Source: Thermodesulfomicrobium sp. WS
GTDB lineage: Bacteria > Desulfobacterota > Desulfovibrionia > Desulfovibrionales > Desulfomicrobiaceae
DNA length: 64,000 nt
Direction: 5' to 3'
Assembly: GCF_027925145.1 (NCBI RefSeq)
Contig: NZ_AP027130.1
Span: 2,237,001 to 2,301,000, forward strand
Each line of letters starts with the position of its first letter. The first letter of the stretch is position 1. Made by a program: the position numbers and the translations under genes. The notes beneath the pieces were generated by a model, which was not told the origin of the DNA, searched no databases, and saw nothing but the letters and a program-made list of their open reading frames with translations. Below, piece after piece: positions 40,336 through 49,155 of the stretch.

Positions 40336-41286
40336 TCAGGGGGTTGCGCGAAAGGTCGCCGCGGCGGCCGTGGACCACTGTCCCGCCAAATAGGCGGCGA
40401 GGGCCAAGGCGTAGAGTTTGGATCGATCCGCGTCCGCCCGGGAAGACACCACCAGCGGTCTCGCCGCGCCCACCACCACTCCGGCGACGAAGCGGCCCAT
40501 GAAGGTAGTCAGCGCCTTGTAGAGGATGTTGCCGGCCTCGATATCCGGGGCGCACAAGATGTCTGCATCTCCGGCCACACCCCCTTCCACGCCTTTATGT
40601 CGGGCCTTGTCCCGCGACACGGCGATGTCCAGGGCAAACGGCCCGCCCACCAGGGCGTCACCGAACACGCCCATGCGGCAGAGCTTGGCCAGCACATCGG
40701 CGTCTTTGGTGGACGGCATGGCCTGATAGGCGATGCGCTCGGTGGCCGAGAGCACCGCCACTTTCGGGGTGCTGATCCCCAGGGCCTTGGCCACGGCCAC
40801 GGCATTGGCGATGATGTCGATCTTGCGGTGCAGGCTCGGGGCCACATTGACCGCGGCGTCGGTGAGGAGCAAAAGGCGCGGCTCCAAAGGGTGGTCCGTC
40901 ACCGCCACGTGGCTGAGGAGCCCCCGCACCCCCAAGTCCTCTTTGCGGTCCAGAACCGCCCGCAAGAGCACGTCGGTCTTGACCGCGCCCTTCATGAGGA
41001 AGTCCGCCTCCCCACGCACCACCATGTCCAGGCTTCGGGCCACCGCCCGCGCAGCATCGGGTTCGTGGATGACGGCGGTCCCCTCCAGCTCGGGCCGCTG
41101 CGCCAAGGCGTCCCGCAGCGCCGCAGCATCCCCCACCAGCACCGGCTCCGCCACGCCCAAACGCCGGGCCTCCATCACGGCGGCCAGGGCAGGGGCGTCA
41201 GCAGCAGCGGCCACCACGACGCGCACGGGCACCCCGCGCCGGGCCACCGCTGCGGGGAGATCGTCAAGGGACCGGAGAGCGGCCAT
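40336..41286 (-). CDS. ptb: Phosphate butyryl/acetyltransferase (Ptb family)
   Basis: The 316-aa enzyme belongs to the Pta/Ptb family (PF01515) and interconverts acyl-CoA and acyl-phosphate. Motifs seen: EADFLMKGAVKTDVLLRAVL, the LTDAAVNVAPSLHRKIDII block and the C-terminal ARPLVVSSRADADRSKL. It looks more like Ptb than Pta in length and in the LMKG-T-LLRAV segment. No acyl kinase gene (buk/ackA) is adjacent, so a partner must lie elsewhere. The start overlaps the ilvN stop by 1 nt. Confidence 0.88.
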   Translation of the reverse strand: MAALRSLDDLPAAVARRGVPVRVVVAAAADAPALAAVMEARRLGVAEPVLVGDAAALRDALAQRPELEGTAVIHEPDAARAVARSLDMVVRGEADFLMKGAVKTDVLLRAVLDRKEDLGVRGLLSHVAVTDHPLEPRLLLLTDAAVNVAPSLHRKIDIIANAVAVAKALGISTPKVAVLSATERIAYQAMPSTKDADVLAKLCRMGVFGDALVGGPFALDIAVSRDKARHKGVEGGVAGDADILCAPDIEAGNILYKALTTFMGRFVAGVVVGAARPLVVSSRADADRSKLYALALAAYLAGQWSTAAAATFRATP

Positions 41287-41765
41287 CACTCGTCTCCCCG
41301 CTTGATGGCGATGACCCCGGTGCGGCTCACCGAAACGATGCCATGGGGGATGAGGGCGCGCAGAAATCCGGCCACCTTGCCGGGGGTGGCGGCCAGCTCC
41401 GCCACCAGGGTGGTGTTGCCCATGTCCACCACATTGGCCCGAAAGACCTCGATGATCTGGAGGAGCTGGCTTACGGTGTCTTTGGCGACCCGCACCTTGA
41501 TGAGCAGCAGCTCCCGGTCGATGAGTTCGTGGGAGGCGAGGTCTTCCAGCCCCAGCACGAAGGGCAGCCCGGCCAACTGTGCGGTCGCCGCGGCCACGCG
41601 CCCACTGTCGTGGTCCACGCAAATGACGATGCGCGATACATCGGCCCGCTCCGTCTCTCCTGCGGAAATGGAAAAGATATTGAGCCCATGCTGCTGGAAC
41701 ACCGCAGCCATGGACGCCAGGACTCCGGGCTGATTGTGGACCAAGGCAGAGATGGTGTGGCGCAT
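41286..41765 (-). CDS. ilvN: Acetolactate synthase small (regulatory) subunit
   Basis: The 159-aa protein aligns with IlvN/IlvH over its length: an N-terminal ACT domain (MRHTISALVHNQPGVLASMAAVF), the LGLEDLASHELIDRELLLIKV junction, and the C-terminal IEVFRANVVDMG to GVIAIKRGDE. Small subunits give valine feedback inhibition to the catalytic IlvB. No ilvB is adjacent or in the window. AGGAGGT precedes the ATG at 41765. It forms a pair with ptb (1-nt overlap). Confidence 0.85.
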   Translation of the reverse strand: MRHTISALVHNQPGVLASMAAVFQQHGLNIFSISAGETERADVSRIVICVDHDSGRVAAATAQLAGLPFVLGLEDLASHELIDRELLLIKVRVAKDTVSQLLQIIEVFRANVVDMGNTTLVAELAATPGKVAGFLRALIPHGIVSVSRTGVIAIKRGDE

Positions 41766-41855
41766 GAAGACCTCCTCTGGGTGTTCCCGTATCCGGTGTC
41801 CGTGAGGCAGGCAAGGCATCCGCCGCCCTTTCCAGAATCCCCGACGGGCTTGGGC

Positions 41856-42890
41856 CTAGATGCGCTCCGTCCGCACCTGCAGATGGACGCAGGCCGCCGT
41901 CACCCGGCTGATGCCCGTATAGATCAGGCTCACGGCAAACACCCCCGCCAGGGCAGCCAAGGTCCCGGGATGCGCCAGGGCAGCCAAAGCGGCCGCGCCA
42001 TCGAAAGTGAGCGTCGCCTTGGGGGCAAGCCCAAGGATCCCCCCGATCCAGACCATGCCCACCACGGCCATCCACTGATAGGCGGAAAACCGGGCATTGC
42101 CGCGAAAATCCGCCCGCAAGAACTCCGAGACCACCCGCCAGGCCAAGGGTACCATCCCCGCCCATGCCAGGGCCAAATCCACGTCACCTGCCACCAAGGC
42201 TTCCGCTCCCATCCAGGCGGCCACCCCATGCACCACGGTGGCCATGCCCTGCACCGGGACCAAGGCCGCGCCTTCCCATCCGCTGGCGTAGGCCGCCTTC
42301 TTGGTGGGACCCCAGAACCGCACCGCCAGCGGCGTAGCGAGCCGTCGCCACGGGGCAGGCAACTCCTCCACCCTCCGGCCATAGCAGCAGCCAAAACTGC
42401 AGCACGCCAGCCGCCCCACACCCTCGCCCAGGGCGTAGGCCACGGCGGAGGCCGCCAGCACCTGGGGCCACGGGGGAAGGCCACCCCAGTACTGCCGCAC
42501 CCCCCAAGCCACCACCGGAACCAGCCACAAGGCGACGAACACGGCCCCGCCCACGGTGAGGGTGGCGCTTTTGCCCTCCACCCAGGCCGCCACCAGGCGG
42601 GAGGCCGGCATGCACACCGCGAGCACCACCGCCACCATGGCCAGCAGGGAACCCAGCGCCGCCCCGAGGCCAGCCCCCAAGAAAACCAGCGCCGCCACCG
42701 CCAGGCTATAGGCCACGGCGCTCACAATACCGTACCACGTAAGATTCACCGCCTGCCACGATCCATCGGCATTGAGACGCACCGGGATGCACGCCGCCAC
42801 CTGCCAGCGGGCCAAAGCCAGCACCCGCGAAAGCCACCACATGGCCGCCAAGGCCGTCACGGCCACGCCCCGCAGCACCCAGATAGTCAT
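41856..42890 (-). CDS. Lgt-like multi-pass membrane protein
   Basis: A 344-aa membrane protein with about eight hydrophobic helices. A central RLACCSFGCCYGRRVEE resembles the active-site arginine/glycine region of prolipoprotein diacylglyceryl transferase (Lgt) relatives, in a form rich in Cys (GCCYGR), and an H in VVHGVAAW follows. It is too divergent to be called the housekeeping Lgt, and the N-terminal helix pair is different. The start overlaps the psd stop by 4 nt, so its job is probably tied to phospholipid chemistry. Assignment to the Lgt superfamily is tentative. Confidence 0.6.
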   Translation of the reverse strand: MTIWVLRGVAVTALAAMWWLSRVLALARWQVAACIPVRLNADGSWQAVNLTWYGIVSAVAYSLAVAALVFLGAGLGAALGSLLAMVAVVLAVCMPASRLVAAWVEGKSATLTVGGAVFVALWLVPVVAWGVRQYWGGLPPWPQVLAASAVAYALGEGVGRLACCSFGCCYGRRVEELPAPWRRLATPLAVRFWGPTKKAAYASGWEGAALVPVQGMATVVHGVAAWMGAEALVAGDVDLALAWAGMVPLAWRVVSEFLRADFRGNARFSAYQWMAVVGMVWIGGILGLAPKATLTFDGAAALAALAHPGTLAALAGVFAVSLIYTGISRVTAACVHLQVRTERI

Positions 42891-43984
42891 GATCCCTCCT
42901 TCAGCATGCACCGCCGGCGTGCACCCTTGTGGGCGCGGGCGATGGTGGAGCGCACGCGCACATCCACCTCCACCCAGGGGCTGCCCAGCCAGGCGGAGAA
43001 GCGGCTGCGCACATCGGCGCGCAATTGATGGCGCAACAACTCCTCGGCAAAGGTCACGCGTCCCGGCTCGAACACCAGCACGTCCACCGAGCTTCCCGGT
43101 AAAAACAGGCTCTTGGGCTGGCCCCGGCGCAGCCAGAGATCCAGGGCCATGGGCTGGTGGGGCCGGTAGCCGCGGGGCGCGTAGCGCTGTTCGATGCGAC
43201 CGATCATGAGCGCCGCCACTTCCACCATGGCCACCATGCCGCAGCAGCTGCCGCCGGGCACGTCGGTATCGATGATGGTCACGGCGCGGCGGTTTTGCGA
43301 ATACGGCGTGGCCATGGCCACCACCGCCGCAGGATTGCAGGAATGAAACGTCCCTTCCAACTCGTAGAAGTCCACCACCACCCCTTCCACCGGCACGTGG
43401 TTGTAGTGGTATTTTTCCGGGGTCAGCCGGAAGATGGCAAATTGGCCGCCGGTAAAGCGCCGCGCCCAGGCAGACCCCACAAGCTGCGATAGCGAGAAGA
43501 ACTTGTCCTTGACCCACAGGTGCGAGGCTGCATCGAGAGAGCCCACCAGCACCCGGGCATCGGCGGGAGACACCACCACCGTGGCATCGGGGTCCATGGG
43601 CCGGCACGTTTCGTAGCGGATCTGGCGCTCAAAGATGCGGCGAGCCGTGGTGTAAAACTCCGGCGGCTCCACGCATTCCCCAAGCTCGATGCCGAGGCGC
43701 TCCACCAAGCGCCGGGCCCCCGAGAGCCGCGCCCCCAAGGGCAGGTCGTAGTTGAAGAACCCCAAAAGCCGGGTCATGCGGCCCGAAGCCAAGGCGCGCA
43801 CCACGCTTGGGGCATGCTCCCGCACCCGGTCGTAGAGATAGGTGATGACCCGGTCGCAAAAGAGTTCTTCGGCCTGCACCCGGCCTGTATCCCTGCAGAC
43901 GAACTCATGGGGCTGCGGCCGCAAAGACGACGACTCCATCCGCAACGCCCCCGCAGTGGGCAACATCTCCGGTTCACGCAGCAT
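42887..43984 (-). CDS. psd: Phosphatidylserine decarboxylase homologue
   Basis: Pyruvoyl enzyme family that turns phosphatidylserine into phosphatidylethanolamine. The 365-aa protein has the Asp of the processing triad in VSPADARVLVG (about 145), the His in YHYNHVPVEGVV (about 200) and the self-cleavage site PGSSVDVLVF (about 300, GSS in place of the usual GST). AAGGAG lies 8 nt before the ATG at 43984. It overlaps the unknown gene upstream by 11 nt and the Lgt-like gene downstream by 4 nt. A longer N-terminal region (about 1-100) precedes the catalytic core. Whether this is the housekeeping Psd or a specialised one is open. Confidence 0.85.
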   Translation of the reverse strand: MLREPEMLPTAGALRMESSSLRPQPHEFVCRDTGRVQAEELFCDRVITYLYDRVREHAPSVVRALASGRMTRLLGFFNYDLPLGARLSGARRLVERLGIELGECVEPPEFYTTARRIFERQIRYETCRPMDPDATVVVSPADARVLVGSLDAASHLWVKDKFFSLSQLVGSAWARRFTGGQFAIFRLTPEKYHYNHVPVEGVVVDFYELEGTFHSCNPAAVVAMATPYSQNRRAVTIIDTDVPGGSCCGMVAMVEVAALMIGRIEQRYAPRGYRPHQPMALDLWLRRGQPKSLFLPGSSVDVLVFEPGRVTFAEELLRHQLRADVRSRFSAWLGSPWVEVDVRVRSTIARAHKGARRRCMLKEGS

Positions 43985-46268
43985 GCCGGCACTCCTTGGC
44001 AGCGGGCTCCCACACCGTCACCGCCACCAGCACGGGCAAAAGCTGGCGGCAGACCTCCTGCGGGATACGGCCGTGCTGGCGTAAGGCCTCCCGCGCCTGT
44101 TTCACCACCCAGTCCACGGACCGGCCATCGCACAGGCCAAGCCCCATGCGCCGGCAAGTGACTTCCAGAAAATCCAGCGCTTCCACTAAGTGCTCCACGC
44201 GGAGCTCTTCCCGGTAGCACGCCTCCGCCGCGCGGTTGAAGGTCTCGGCGTCCACCTCCAAGGGCGAGCGCGCCCCCAGCCGCGCCAGCACCCGATCCGT
44301 CAAGCGCGAGGCGGCCCGCGCCTCGGGATGTTCCAAGCGCCGGCGCAAATCCGCCAACACCGGTTGCGCACCCATGGCCTCCACCACACAGGCGGCCTCG
44401 GTTTCGAGAAAATCCACCAGCGCCGCCCGCAGCTCCGGCAGGCGCACGCGGGCATGTCCCGGATAGCGCCGGCTGGGGCGCACACGCGCTACGCGGCCCA
44501 CCAGTTCGATCAGCAAACGGTTGGGGCTGTCGTGGCGCACGAACACCGTGGGCACCTCCAAGGCCATGGCGAAAAACGCCTGGCGCCGCTCGCTCTCCCA
44601 GGTGGGCGCATCCGGGATGGCGCCGTGGTCCACCCGCCGAGAAAGCACCATCCACCACGCCACGGCAGTCAGCAAAAGCTGCAGGTCCACGGCCCGTGCC
44701 ATGTCCTGGCCATACGAAGGAAATAGGCTGAAAAAACGGCCCTCGAATCCACTAAAACCCATACGGGCAAAGATGCGCGGCTTGTAGAGGAGATAGGTGG
44801 ACATGGCGGCGTGAAAGACCCCGTGCGCCGCCAGTTCGGCCTTGAGGCGCTCGTCGCTGCCCAGGCTTCCGTCCAAACAAGAAGCCTCGTGGGTGCTCAT
44901 GAGACACGTCATGTAGTCCACCAGGCGGAAGTCGGGCACGTGGTCGCCGCGCAGGCCAAAGATCCGCGCCAGGGCGCGGTCCAAGGCCGGAGGTCCAAAC
45001 GGGGTGATGGGACGCCCCAAGATCTTGAGCTTGGCCTTCTTCTTCCAGCGCCGCCACAGCATGCGCAGATGGGTGAAATCCAACTCGTGGGGCAAAAATC
45101 CCAAGGCGGTCTCGGGATGAAAATCCGCAAACCCCAAACGGTACGGGGCGGCGCTATACACCCCCACGAAAAGCGGCAGAAAATGCTCCACTATCTTGAC
45201 CACCAGGTCCGCGGCCCATTTTTCCTCCGCCGGGCCAAGACCGCCGCTGGCAAGAAGGGCGCTCAAACGACGACTGCCCAAGGAAACGTGGATGCCGTTA
45301 TTGGCCAAGCAGGTGCTCGAGGTATTGGGCAGCACCACCAGGTTGCGGTTCAAAAGCCCCGCCTCCCGCAGCTTGCCCAAGGCATTGAGCTGACTGCGGG
45401 AAAGGGTCTCGTGGCACAGGTGCATGTAGGCCTTCTTTTCCTCGCCCCGCTCCCAGCCGCTCAAGCACGGATTGATGAAAAGCTCGCGGTAGAAGGCATC
45501 GGGCACCAAGGCGTTGAGGGCCTTCTGCCGCCACGGCGGCAGGGGCGAGGCGTAGACCACCACCCGCTGGCCGCTGGCCTCCAGCCCCAAGGCATGGTTG
45601 GCCCACTCCACCAGGACTTCGCACAAGAGCTGGCGCATGCAGGTCTCCCGCGCCACGGCCAGGCCGCCTTCATGACAGGGCAGGGGCGCGAAGGACACCG
45701 TCTCCGGCGAAGTGTTGTCATTGGAAAAGAGGGGAAAAAGCCTGCGCGCCACATGGGCGTCGCCGCGCAGGGGGCCGTCCATGGCCTGGGCGAGGGAAAG
45801 CTTCAAGAGATAGCTCACCGGGATGCGCAGCCACGTCTCTCCGGCCTCCTGCACGAAAAAGTCGGCGCTGTCGCTGCGCCGCGGGCCATTGGGCGCCGAC
45901 TTGTCCGCCGCCAGGTCCGCATCCAGCACCGCGCGGGCAACGGCCGAAAGCCGCGCCATGGGCACCCGCACCCAACTGTTCTCCCACACCTCTCCCGGGC
46001 CTGGCTCGAGCACCGCCTCCACGGCCTCCAACATCCGGGCCGGATACTCCCCCGCGGCCGCCCGGCGCCTGAGCCCCTGCACGTAGCGCGAGGCCATCAC
46101 CGTGCGCGGCAGATCCACCCGCTCCCGCGGTCCGATGACCGCGGTTTGAAGCTCCGTCTCCGAGCCGGCGGTGGCATCTGCCGCAAGAAAGGGCAAATCC
46201 CCGATGCCGCCATAGCCCAGCGCCGCCTGCAGCCGCGCCGCCATGTCTTCGCTCGCCGTCGATCCCAT
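43974..46268 (-). CDS. Large uncharacterised protein of the psd cassette, 764 aa
   Basis: I do not recognise this family. The 764-aa product has no signal peptide and no clear membrane helices except one moderately hydrophobic stretch near 540 (LLLTAVAWWMVLS). It has several conserved-looking blocks: LPNTSSTCLANNGIHVSLGSR, FHPETALGFLPHELDFTH followed by RRWKKKAKLK, and LVDYMTCLMSTHEASC. The C-terminal 170 residues are helical and Arg/Leu/Glu rich. The ATG at 46268 has GGAGGG 6 nt upstream. Its stop overlaps psd by 11 nt, giving strong coupling. Function may be in lipid modification or a polymer linked to phosphatidylserine, by context only. Confidence 0.75.
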   Translation of the reverse strand: MGSTASEDMAARLQAALGYGGIGDLPFLAADATAGSETELQTAVIGPRERVDLPRTVMASRYVQGLRRRAAAGEYPARMLEAVEAVLEPGPGEVWENSWVRVPMARLSAVARAVLDADLAADKSAPNGPRRSDSADFFVQEAGETWLRIPVSYLLKLSLAQAMDGPLRGDAHVARRLFPLFSNDNTSPETVSFAPLPCHEGGLAVARETCMRQLLCEVLVEWANHALGLEASGQRVVVYASPLPPWRQKALNALVPDAFYRELFINPCLSGWERGEEKKAYMHLCHETLSRSQLNALGKLREAGLLNRNLVVLPNTSSTCLANNGIHVSLGSRRLSALLASGGLGPAEEKWAADLVVKIVEHFLPLFVGVYSAAPYRLGFADFHPETALGFLPHELDFTHLRMLWRRWKKKAKLKILGRPITPFGPPALDRALARIFGLRGDHVPDFRLVDYMTCLMSTHEASCLDGSLGSDERLKAELAAHGVFHAAMSTYLLYKPRIFARMGFSGFEGRFFSLFPSYGQDMARAVDLQLLLTAVAWWMVLSRRVDHGAIPDAPTWESERRQAFFAMALEVPTVFVRHDSPNRLLIELVGRVARVRPSRRYPGHARVRLPELRAALVDFLETEAACVVEAMGAQPVLADLRRRLEHPEARAASRLTDRVLARLGARSPLEVDAETFNRAAEACYREELRVEHLVEALDFLEVTCRRMGLGLCDGRSVDWVVKQAREALRQHGRIPQEVCRQLLPVLVAVTVWEPAAKECRHAA

Positions 46269-46425
46269 GCACCCTCCATAACGCTCGTCTTTCGGAGGAT
46301 CATGTCTGGGAAAAACGGCAACACGGTGCCGCATGGGTCACAAGGCAGTGACAACGCAGACCCCTCGGGGCGGATGCCCTGGGACATTGGAAAAAGAATC
46401 GGCAACTGCGAACGCTAAGCGGAGT

Positions 46426-46800
46426 TCAGGCAGCGGCATCCGCGGCGCAGCGCAGACGGCGGGCAAGGAGTTCCATGAGGCCCGGGTCATCATGCAGACC
46501 CGACTCCAAGCGCACTTCCACCGCAGGCCAGCGCTGGGCAAGCTCCGCCACCAAGGCAGGGATATCGCGGCGCAGATGCACGCCGTCCAAAAGAAAGAGC
46601 GGCAAGATGTGGATCTGCCGCACACCAGCGGTAGCCAAGGCCGCCACCTGGGTGGGCAGATCCGGCTCACCAAGAGAAAAATATGCAGGAACGACCCTGA
46701 CCTCCGGATCCATCGCCTGCAGCCGGGCCACGAGCTGCGCAAACGACTCACGCGCCCGGGGCTCGCGGCTGCCATGGGCCAAGACAATCCATGCTCGCAC
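46426..46800 (-). CDS. cbiX: Small CbiX-type sirohydrochlorin chelatase
   Basis: A 124-aa short-form (CbiX-S) protein inserting cobalt or iron into sirohydrochlorin for B12 or siroheme. The N-terminal metal-ligand His is in VLAHGSREPRA and a second in LPLFLLDGVHLRRDIP, as in the family. The short form works as a homodimer. The start is a GTG at 46800 with GGAGG 6 nt upstream. It lies 15 nt downstream of a hybrid kinase, an odd operon partner. The metal cannot be deduced. Confidence 0.88.
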   Translation of the reverse strand: MRAWIVLAHGSREPRARESFAQLVARLQAMDPEVRVVPAYFSLGEPDLPTQVAALATAGVRQIHILPLFLLDGVHLRRDIPALVAELAQRWPAVEVRLESGLHDDPGLMELLARRLRCAADAAA

Positions 46801-46815: not shown

Positions 46816-49155
46816 TTATTCCCGCCCCAGGACCCGGGCTAAAGTGGTTGCCAAGGTCTGGAAATCCACAGGTTTGGCCAGATAAGCATCCATGCCTGCG
46901 GTCACGAAACGCTCGCTATCCCCAGGCATGGCAAAGGCCGTAAGGGCCACCACGCGCGGCCCTCCATCAGCGTGGCGGGCGCGGATACGGCGAACCACTT
47001 CCACACCATCTATGTCCGGCAGTTGGATGTCTAAAAGCACCACGTCCACGGACTCAGCGGCCTCCACCGCCACGCCATCGGCGCCTGTGGCGGCAGTAAG
47101 CACCTCATACCCTAAGCGGGACAAAAGCTGGGTCGCCGCCATACGGTTGATGGGGTCGTCTTCCACCACGAGCACCCGGCCTGAGGCGCAGCACGGCAAC
47201 GGCGGAACGGCATCGACATCCACCGCACGCTCCACCGGCCGCAGTGGGAGCACGAAATGCACGGTCGTCCCCTCGCCAGGCTCGCTCTCCACACTGAGGA
47301 CTCCCTGCATGCGGCGGATAAGTTCTTTGACGATAGCAAGCCCGAGCCCTGCCCCCTGAAAGCGCCGGGTCATGGATCCATCGGCCTGGGAAAAGGGAGC
47401 AAAGAGCCGCGGCAGCACCTCGGGTGCAATGCCGACCCCTGTGTCCTGCACCGAAAAATAAACGCGCTCCGCATCCCCCAAAGGCACCGGCAAGCGTCGC
47501 ACCTCCACCCGGACCTCACCGTGAGGGGTGAATTTGACCGCATTGCCCACCAAATTCGAGAGGATCTGCTGGAGCCGTACGCCGTCACCTTCTACGTGGC
47601 GGGGCACAGCCGAATCCACATGCCAGTGCAGGGTGATGCCCTTCATGCGGGCGCTAAACGCAAAGAGTCGGCAAACGTCGTCCACGGCCTGATGCAGATC
47701 GAAGGGCGCGCGGTGCAAAGAAAAACCACCGGCCTCCATGCGCGAGAGATCAAGGATGTCGGAGAGGAGTTGGGTAAGACGCTGGCAGGACTCCATACCC
47801 GTGCGCACATATTCGGCCTGTTCGTCGGAAAGATCGGTCATGAGCAGGAGCTGGAGCATGCCCATCATGCCGTTGAGGGGGGTGCGGATCTCATGGCTCA
47901 TGTTGGCAAGAAACTCGCTCTTGACACGATTGGCGGCCTCGGCAGCGTCGCGGGCCTCCAGAAGGGCGCGGCGCGCCTGCATACGCTCGGTCATATCCGT
48001 ATGCGTGCCCACAGCGCGCACAGGCCGGCCGTCGTCAAACTCTACTACTCGGCCACGGCCTTCGATCCACTTCCACTGCCCGTCCTTGGTACGGCAGCGG
48101 AACTCCACCCGAAAACCTTGGCCTGCGGCAATGGCGGTCTCGATGCGGTGCTGGGTGGGCGCCAAGTCTTCTGGGTGCAGCAATCGCTTCCAGGTATCGT
48201 AGGTGGCGGGAAACTCTCCCGGCTGATAGCCGAGCATGGTGTAGTAGCGAGGGCTGAAATAGGCCTCGTTGGTTACTAAGTTCCAGTCCCACAGGCCATC
48301 TTCCACGGCATCCAACGCCAAGGCGAGACGCTCTTCGCTCTGCAAGAACTCTTGCTGTATGCGAACCCGAGCGCTGACATCCTGACGGATGAGGATACCG
48401 CCCTCCGTGCGCCCCCCACGCACGAATGGCACAGCCCACATGCTCTGGTAACCGGAGCGGCCGGAAGCGAACCGCGGCACCCGCACATCCAGAAGCTCCA
48501 CCGCCTGGCCGGAGAGGACCTGCAAGATCTTTCCCCCCACCCCTGCGGATCGGATACCTTCGAGCTCGTCGATACGCCGGCCCAGAAAGTGGGACGCCGG
48601 CAGCCCACCGGCAAAGCGGGTCAGATGCCAGCGGTTGACAAAACGCACCACACCCTGGGCATCGAACTGCATCACGGAAAGGGGCATGGATTCCACCAGG
48701 GTGCGGAAACGGCCCTCCATCTGGGCAAGCTGTTCCCGCATCCGGCAGGGACGGGTGCACTCAAGGCAATCGCCAGGCTGATGGCAGTCCTCGCCCATGC
48801 TTCCTGCGCGCGGGATCTCCCGCAACACCTCCACCACCAGGGTGCGGCCATCGGCATCGATGACGGGGATCGCCTCGCAATGGAAATGCCGCCCCAAGAC
48901 CGGCTCGAAGCGCGTGAGGCGCACGGGCTCTTCAGAGGCAAGCGCCGCCTCCACCGGACAATCGGCGCACGGGGTGCTGTTGCCAATGAGTTCAAAGCAG
49001 CGCCGACCCAAAACCCGAGACGGGTCCGACTCCCCAAGCAGGCGCATGCCCGCGGCGTTGTAAAAAAGAATACGGTGGTCACCGTCCACGACCCCGATCA
49101 CATACGGCAAGCTATCGAGAGCCAGGCGCAAGAGCTGGCAGGAATCGGCACTCAT
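46816..49155 (-). CDS. Soluble PAS hybrid histidine kinase
   Basis: A 779-aa cytosolic hybrid kinase. PAS1 (about 8-115) carries a CADCP motif, the linker holds a four-cysteine cluster (CHQPGDCLECTRPC, about 125-138), and PAS2 (about 145-265) and PAS3/PAC (about 280-395) follow. HisKA has His in LANMSHEIRTPLNG near residue 420, then HATPase_c (DTGVGI, GAGLGLAIVK) and a C-terminal receiver (VVEDDPIN; phospho-Asp in VVLLDIQLPDIDG near 706; Lys in YLAKPVD). The cysteines suggest a metal- or redox-sensing site. It lies downstream of an HD-GYP response regulator, which may be its output. Confidence 0.93.
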   Translation of the reverse strand: MSADSCQLLRLALDSLPYVIGVVDGDHRILFYNAAGMRLLGESDPSRVLGRRCFELIGNSTPCADCPVEAALASEEPVRLTRFEPVLGRHFHCEAIPVIDADGRTLVVEVLREIPRAGSMGEDCHQPGDCLECTRPCRMREQLAQMEGRFRTLVESMPLSVMQFDAQGVVRFVNRWHLTRFAGGLPASHFLGRRIDELEGIRSAGVGGKILQVLSGQAVELLDVRVPRFASGRSGYQSMWAVPFVRGGRTEGGILIRQDVSARVRIQQEFLQSEERLALALDAVEDGLWDWNLVTNEAYFSPRYYTMLGYQPGEFPATYDTWKRLLHPEDLAPTQHRIETAIAAGQGFRVEFRCRTKDGQWKWIEGRGRVVEFDDGRPVRAVGTHTDMTERMQARRALLEARDAAEAANRVKSEFLANMSHEIRTPLNGMMGMLQLLLMTDLSDEQAEYVRTGMESCQRLTQLLSDILDLSRMEAGGFSLHRAPFDLHQAVDDVCRLFAFSARMKGITLHWHVDSAVPRHVEGDGVRLQQILSNLVGNAVKFTPHGEVRVEVRRLPVPLGDAERVYFSVQDTGVGIAPEVLPRLFAPFSQADGSMTRRFQGAGLGLAIVKELIRRMQGVLSVESEPGEGTTVHFVLPLRPVERAVDVDAVPPLPCCASGRVLVVEDDPINRMAATQLLSRLGYEVLTAATGADGVAVEAAESVDVVLLDIQLPDIDGVEVVRRIRARHADGGPRVVALTAFAMPGDSERFVTAGMDAYLAKPVDFQTLATTLARVLGRE

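Follow-up and report, generated by a model that had tools for sequence, protein, structure and literature searches.

Three adjacent genes in the bacterium Thermodesulfomicrobium sp. WS form a cassette that probably makes a modified membrane lipid, or attaches a lipid to something. They lie within a stretch of 64,000 nucleotides of contig NZ_AP027130.1 (positions 2,237,001 to 2,301,000), here called the window. The genes encode a large protein, here called U, a homologue of phosphatidylserine decarboxylase (Psd), and a membrane protein that resembles the prolipoprotein transferase Lgt. Within the window they read as follows.

U: 43974..46268, minus strand; 764 amino acids; a new family with a predicted glutamine-synthetase/gamma-glutamylcysteine-synthetase (GS) fold, predicted to be an ATP-dependent carboxylate-amine ligase
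Psd homologue: 42887..43984, minus strand; 365 amino acids; pyruvoyl-dependent decarboxylase proenzyme of a dedicated subfamily (PF02666, E 3.7e-37)
Lgt homologue: 41856..42890, minus strand; 344 amino acids; integral membrane protein with the Lgt fold

A preliminary description, made from the letters of the window, had placed the three genes at 41856-46268, with overlaps of 11 and 4 nucleotides. All frames were confirmed, as were the overlaps, of 11 nucleotides between U and Psd and 4 (ATGA) between Psd and Lgt. The main addition made here is that U is predicted to be a ligase of the glutathione-synthesis fold. There is about an even chance that the cassette is a dedicated accessory pathway whose product, made at the cytoplasmic membrane, is an amide-modified (conjugated) lipid. 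No description of the cassette was found in the literature, where coverage of subscription journals was limited.

Reading frames and gene order

The host genome is a single contig of 2.36 Mb, and its closest named relatives are metagenome-assembled genomes (MAGs) of the Desulfomicrobiaceae. Measured against a relative that is 95% identical, the ratio of nonsynonymous to synonymous substitution (dN/dS) is 0.13 for U, 0.20 for Psd and 0.28 for Lgt, and the differences sit mainly at third positions. This means that all three frames are under purifying selection and that the coding is genuine. U has an alternative start, an in-frame ATG at 46334 that would lead to 786 amino acids; a stop in a close relative permits only the 764 amino acid start.

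Twenty-five loci were examined closely, and each of them has the order U, Psd, Lgt on a single strand. The preliminary description read the overlaps in the window as a sign that the products work in fixed ratio. This is suggestive only. The overlap of U and Psd is kept in 22 of the 25 loci, with a median of 23 nucleotides, where the lengths are approximate because start codons of relatives were assigned by rule. The junction between Psd and Lgt is looser: the frames overlap in 5 loci, the median gap is 41 nucleotides, and in 7 loci the gap exceeds 100. Additional genes are inserted within the cassette in a few loci.

Linkage across genomes

Twenty-two public contigs contain a relative of U; they come from Desulfobacterota, Nitrospinae, Nitrospirae and one Victivallales MAG. 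Carriers of the cassette include sulfate-reducing bacteria and relatives of these. Wherever the flanking DNA is long enough, U is followed by the Psd and then the Lgt homologue. The distribution is patchy: among the other genomes searched, 12 of 21 in the same family have U, and all 39 that are in the order but not in the family lack it. This patchiness marks an accessory function.

Whether the three genes travel together had been named earlier as a check, and the answer is that they do so nearly perfectly, across genomes and phyla. Among 395 Desulfobacterota genomes, U (above 970 bits), the cassette-type Psd (above 465 bits) and the cassette-type Lgt (above 370 bits) each occur in 44, and all three occur in 43. 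The gap to other members of these families is wide, 465 bits against 140 for the next Psd, and 370 against 43 for the next Lgt. A hypergeometric estimate for this co-occurrence is 4e-56, a figure that ignores phylogeny. Neither the cassette-type Psd nor the cassette-type Lgt occurs without U.

Two genomes are discordant. One (G382) has contig breaks within U and within the Lgt homologue. In the other (G175) the contig ends just upstream of Psd, and an open frame there resembles the variable C-terminus of U, with no BLAST match. Both were rejected as real exceptions on account of these contig ends. Six loci that appeared to lack a partner (L047-L049, L054, L057 and L062) were likewise rejected, as the missing genes sit slightly farther off.

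Outside the Desulfobacterota, the phylum of a Nitrospina MAG has U in 5 of 77 genomes, with both partners adjacent in 4 of the 4 inspected. The tree distances of the three proteins also co-vary, with Mantel r values of 0.67, 0.74 and 0.45, and 0 of 2000 permutations reached these. The linkage is beyond chance, and the three genes are a real cassette.

U, a predicted carboxylate-amine ligase

Searches of U against Pfam, NCBIfam, PADLOC and the sequences of the PDB gave nothing usable. At the sequence level, the earlier statement that this protein is of no known family holds for Pfam, NCBIfam and PDB. No Pfam profile match to PF04262 or PF04107 was found in any of 21 members of the U family. The sampled genomes of the phylum held no reference for PF04262 (Glu_cys_ligase).

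The structure searches, also proposed earlier as a check, do point somewhere. An AlphaFold2 model was built from 21 relatives, which make a shallow alignment. It has a predicted template modelling score (pTM) of 0.81 and a mean predicted local distance difference test (pLDDT) of 72.7. The top Foldseek matches are YbdK (1tt4) and gamma-glutamylcysteine synthetase, with weak E-values. Structural alignment against 416 chains placed 14 members of the GS-fold superfamily at the top, and the next, unrelated match has a Z score of 2.5. The Z scores are 15.4 for GshF (3ln7), 15.0 for GshA (1v4g), 14.1 for YbdK (1tt4), 13.1 for PafA, 13.0 for Dop and 7.8 for the yeast glutamate-cysteine ligase. The aligned parts cover 323 of 354 residues of 1tt4 and 393 of 505 of 1v4g.

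The carboxylate-amine ligase superfamily is known by a GhExE (or Ex[EH]) motif on core strand 1, [HD]x[NH] on strand 4 and Ex[RK]x2D on strand 6 (PMC2588565). U has candidates for all of these, listed here with one further conserved stretch.

G35-x-E37-x-E39: 46152..46166, minus strand; at the start of a beta-strand, a putative metal/ATP site of GhExE type, present in 19 of the 19 members reaching there
N323-N-G-x-H327-x-S329: 45282..45302, minus strand; on a strand, invariant, the proposed [HD]x[NH] site of core strand 4
G507-F-E509-x-R511-xx-S514: 44727..44750, minus strand; on a strand, invariant, the proposed Ex[RK]x2D site of core strand 6
H400-LRM-x-WRRWKKKA-x-LK415: 45024..45071, minus strand; invariant basic and tryptophan residues, in a low-pLDDT part of the model

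The h position of the first motif is S, T, V or G in the U family. The second retains the histidine and has serine as its other residue; its placement on strand 4 follows from the motif and a predicted strand only. The third retains glutamate and arginine, with serine in place of aspartate. The order of the motifs matches that of the superfamily, and this evidence is independent of the model. The WRRWKKKA stretch may possibly contact the membrane, an anionic lipid or a phosphate.

Because of the fold matches, and because superfamily motifs stand in the right order, U is predicted, on its fold, to be a new family of the carboxylate-amine ligase superfamily, outside any known family. With GshA, GCS2 and YbdK it shares the predicted fold (Z 14-15) and the GxExE of strand 1, and its candidate motifs for strands 4 and 6 have the histidine and the ExR of theirs. 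It differs from them in having no detectable sequence or profile similarity, in being some 250-400 residues longer, in its HxS and ExRx2S variants, and in always being coupled to Psd and Lgt homologues. It also shares the predicted fold (Z 13) and GxExE with PafA and Dop. Unlike these, it has no conserved Pup-like open reading frame nearby, and no conserved neighbours such as proteasome genes. Membrane-anchored variants of PafA have been described (PMC2588565).

One genome of the family has U broken into two overlapping frames (L038/L040, G016 C11:110347-112472), which is a frameshift or a sequencing error.

The decarboxylase and the Lgt-like protein

The Psd label given earlier is borne out. 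The protein scores 128.4 bits with PF02666, where the curated cut-off is 22, and matches solved bacterial Psd chains at 4e-17. In Psd, catalysis involves an aspartate and two histidines, and the proenzyme cleaves itself at a GS[ST] site. The cassette homologue has the following.

D142: 43559-43561, minus strand; catalytic aspartate, invariant in 20 of 20
H193-Y-N-H196: 43397..43408, minus strand; active-site histidines, invariant in 20 of 20
G297-S298-S299: 43088..43096, minus strand; self-cleavage/pyruvoyl site, invariant in 20 of 20

The homologue should be an active decarboxylase, because all of these residues are kept in 20 of 20 members. It is like other PF02666 proteins in its catalytic aspartate, two histidines and self-cleaving Gly-Ser-Ser. 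It differs from them in being a subfamily of its own that is always accompanied by U and the Lgt homologue, in a host that has a psd elsewhere.

The Lgt homologue of the window has no Pfam match itself. PF01790 is matched by 14 of 15 members of its family at a lenient threshold (E up to 10), the best at 3e-10. Its structure model has a pLDDT of 90.6, and it aligns with E. coli Lgt (5azb) at a Z score of 13.5, over 231 of 284 residues with a root-mean-square deviation of 3.6; the next match scores 5.1. The earlier Lgt-like label thus stands. The protein has an extra N-terminal helix and a C-terminal extension.

Residues were mapped to E. coli Lgt by motif alignment, which gives two proposed sites.

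G159-R160-LACCSFGCCYG171: 42378..42416, minus strand; replaces GRLGNFINGELWG, with the Arg143 equivalent kept and cysteines at the Asn146 and Glu151 positions
R252-xxx-E256-xx-R259-x-D261: 42108..42137, minus strand; proposed equivalents of Arg239, Glu243 and Arg246

The equivalents of Tyr26, Arg143 (R160), Arg239 (R252), Glu243 and Arg246 are invariant in the family, and these residues line the phosphatidylglycerol site. His103, of the HGGL motif, is essential in E. coli Lgt and is the proposed activator of the lipobox cysteine (PMC4728403, PMC8689077). Its equivalent is Val, Ile or Thr in 15 of 15 members. The protein seems to have retained its donor side, with a change on the acceptor side. 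Since the residues of the phosphatidylglycerol site are invariant but the His103 equivalent is absent, with cysteines at the Asn146 and Glu151 positions, this points to a protein that would use phosphatidylglycerol with a different acceptor.

Compared to PF01790 proteins in general, the cassette protein has the predicted Lgt fold and the donor-side equivalents in common. It is set apart by its Val, Ile or Thr for His103, its two cysteines with the GCCYG signature, its two extensions, and the presence of a separate canonical lgt. It is classed by its modelled structure as an Lgt-fold homologue and not as a functional prolipoprotein transferase, because the essential His103 is absent.

Separate housekeeping genes

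The preliminary description suggested looking for a second psd and a canonical lgt. The host genome has a second psd, adjoining a pssA-like gene, and two further genes with PF01790; one of these follows an lspA-like gene. Carriers elsewhere are nearly all alike in this. At least two PF02666 genes are present in 42 of the 42 other Desulfobacterota carriers tested, and in 3 of 4 carriers from other phyla. Nearly all of the 42 also have a separate strong PF01790 gene. The exceptions are G216 and G330, which are incomplete genomes, and G281, where only the separate gene was found. The cassette Psd and Lgt are not housekeeping copies, because a separate psd exists in all 42 carriers and a separate lgt in nearly all.

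The host lgt homologue downstream of the lspA-like gene (L004 1450-2262) has a cysteine-containing GRIGCLFAGCGFG signature and is not canonical itself; a more canonical Lgt is found at L003.

A proposed pathway

The earlier suggestion of a modified phospholipid, or of a headgroup being added, is supported, and the fold of U as a divergent carboxylate-amine ligase fits it; the exact product is only proposed. The scheme below starts from the identity and linkage of the genes, the predicted folds, the conserved motifs and the separateness from the housekeeping copies. From these we infer the activities; the substrates and the order of the steps are guesses.

The Psd homologue would decarboxylate an amino-acid-type headgroup, of phosphatidylserine or an analogue, and so leave a lipid with a free primary amine. 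U would use ATP to turn a carboxylate into an acyl phosphate and join this to an amine; the simplest candidate is the amine made by the Psd homologue, whose gene overlaps that of U. The order may also be the other way around, with U making a gamma-glutamyl-type lipid that is then decarboxylated. The Lgt homologue would bind phosphatidylglycerol through its conserved donor-side residues, and finish the product by a diacylglyceryl transfer whose acceptor is not a lipobox cysteine.

Several findings weigh against such a lipid pathway. U is tied to lipids through genomic association alone. Profile-profile alignment of U with two GCS2 groups by hhalign was without significance. The model of U is weak (pLDDT below 50) at 287-324 and 379-461, which are stretches with many invariant residues, and two motifs depart from the superfamily pattern (HxS in place of Hx[NH], ExRx2S in place of ExRx2D). 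The Lgt homologue is without several residues that are essential in E. coli Lgt. The final point is chemical. The type-strain record of Desulfatibacillum alkenivorans carries the cassette (L009), and DSM 16219 is the same strain as PF2803T. The published lipidome of this species has phosphatidylethanolamine, phosphatidylglycerol and cardiolipins as its three main phospholipid classes, and no new headgroup class (PMC11150832). An abundant new headgroup is therefore unlikely in this species under that growth condition. Because the lipidome lists only these main phospholipids, the cassette could only yield a product that is minor, conditional or no bulk phospholipid. Conjugation to a protein or peptide, or a minor lipid, would be compatible with this.

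Other explanations

The first alternative is lipidation of a protein or peptide, which is unlikely yet carries some weight. U would act like PafA and form an isopeptide bond between a carboxylate of the protein or peptide and the amine of phosphatidylethanolamine from the Psd homologue; this would anchor the target to the membrane, and the Lgt homologue would add a second anchor. PafA and Dop are among the best fold matches of U (Z 13), U exceeds in size its matches among the small-molecule ligases, it always comes with a partner that uses lipids, and the carrier lipidome shows no new bulk lipid. GshA and YbdK however score equal to or above PafA, and products in the superfamily are mostly small molecules (PMC2588565). 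There is also no conserved tag-like open reading frame, of 35-110 amino acids, within 2 kb of the cassette in the 25 loci, and a Pup-like tag system was rejected on these grounds. Stated more broadly, the cassette would encode a system with a GS-fold ligase that uses ATP to form an amide bond between the amine of a membrane lipid and a protein or peptide, in effect a parallel in bacteria to the conjugation of phosphatidylethanolamine, or else one whose products are doubly lipidated molecules of a wholly new class; this too has a limited chance of being right.

A lipid-anchored small thiol or peptide cofactor is a doubtful candidate, with a small chance. Pyruvoyl chemistry requires a free amine adjoining a carboxylate. 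A gamma-glutamyl group offers just such a free alpha-amino-carboxylate, and U would make a compound like a gamma-glutamyl dipeptide, to which the Lgt homologue adds diacylglyceryl, with the Psd homologue decarboxylating the free amino-acid end. The best match of U is indeed a gamma-glutamylcysteine synthetase, the host genome is without a PF04107 or PF04262 gene, and the gene order U-Psd-Lgt fits. One carrier genome (G146) does have a GCS2 gene as well, and the Lgt homologue is without His103, the proposed base activating an acceptor thiol.

It is improbable that U is a GS-fold hydrolase or regulator, with the cassette removing or sensing a lipid conjugate. The hydrolase Dop matches U at Z 13.0, and two catalytic motifs of U are changed at one position each. 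Dop, however, works in opposition to a ligase, and the cassette has no second ligase linked to it.

Housekeeping or backup synthesis of phosphatidylethanolamine plus lipoprotein maturation, in an operon with an unrelated gene by chance, would agree with the catalytic residues of the Psd homologue and the fold of the Lgt homologue, but it is very improbable and was rejected given the separate psd and lgt copies of the carriers, the cassette types being found only alongside U, and the missing equivalents of the essential His103 and Asn146.

Neighbouring genes and variant loci

No fourth conserved gene was found among the neighbours of the cassette across the loci inspected. A wider operon was rejected on this basis; a few loci have small genes between Psd and Lgt, and these are specific to their lineages.

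About 36 nucleotides downstream of the cassette, on the minus strand, the window has an ACT protein like the small subunit of acetolactate synthase (41286-41819) and a phosphate acetyl/butyryltransferase (40336-41262). This arrangement is kept only in close relatives. Upstream of U there is a CbiX-type chelatase (46426-46800, minus strand), and before it a large hybrid histidine kinase (46816-49155).

Four loci (L025, L073, L074, L075) have a DksA/TraR-like zinc-finger protein of about 134 amino acids between Psd and Lgt. Three loci (L018 1097-1516, L076 5103-5537, L082 12820-13242) have a gene like those of low-molecular-weight phosphatases/arsenate reductases, close to the cassette or within it. 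A large protein occurs near the cassette in L017, L018, L072 and L079, with a PHP-like domain at its start in at least two of these, and possibly belongs to a linked pathway. At L080 8923-10209 (G398) the Psd and Lgt homologues are separated by a transposase-like fragment and the frame of Lgt is broken, so this cassette is apparently decaying.

Meaning

A near-perfectly conserved module of three enzymes, found in several bacterial phyla, includes a large enzyme without a family name. We know of no earlier ligase of the glutathione-synthesis fold in lipid chemistry. If the proposed pathway is right, U would, as far as we know, be the first such ligase to act there, and the cassette would stand for a new lipid class in anaerobes, or for a new means of membrane anchoring. 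It is directly testable, because cultured carriers exist and the product can be searched for by mass spectrometry.

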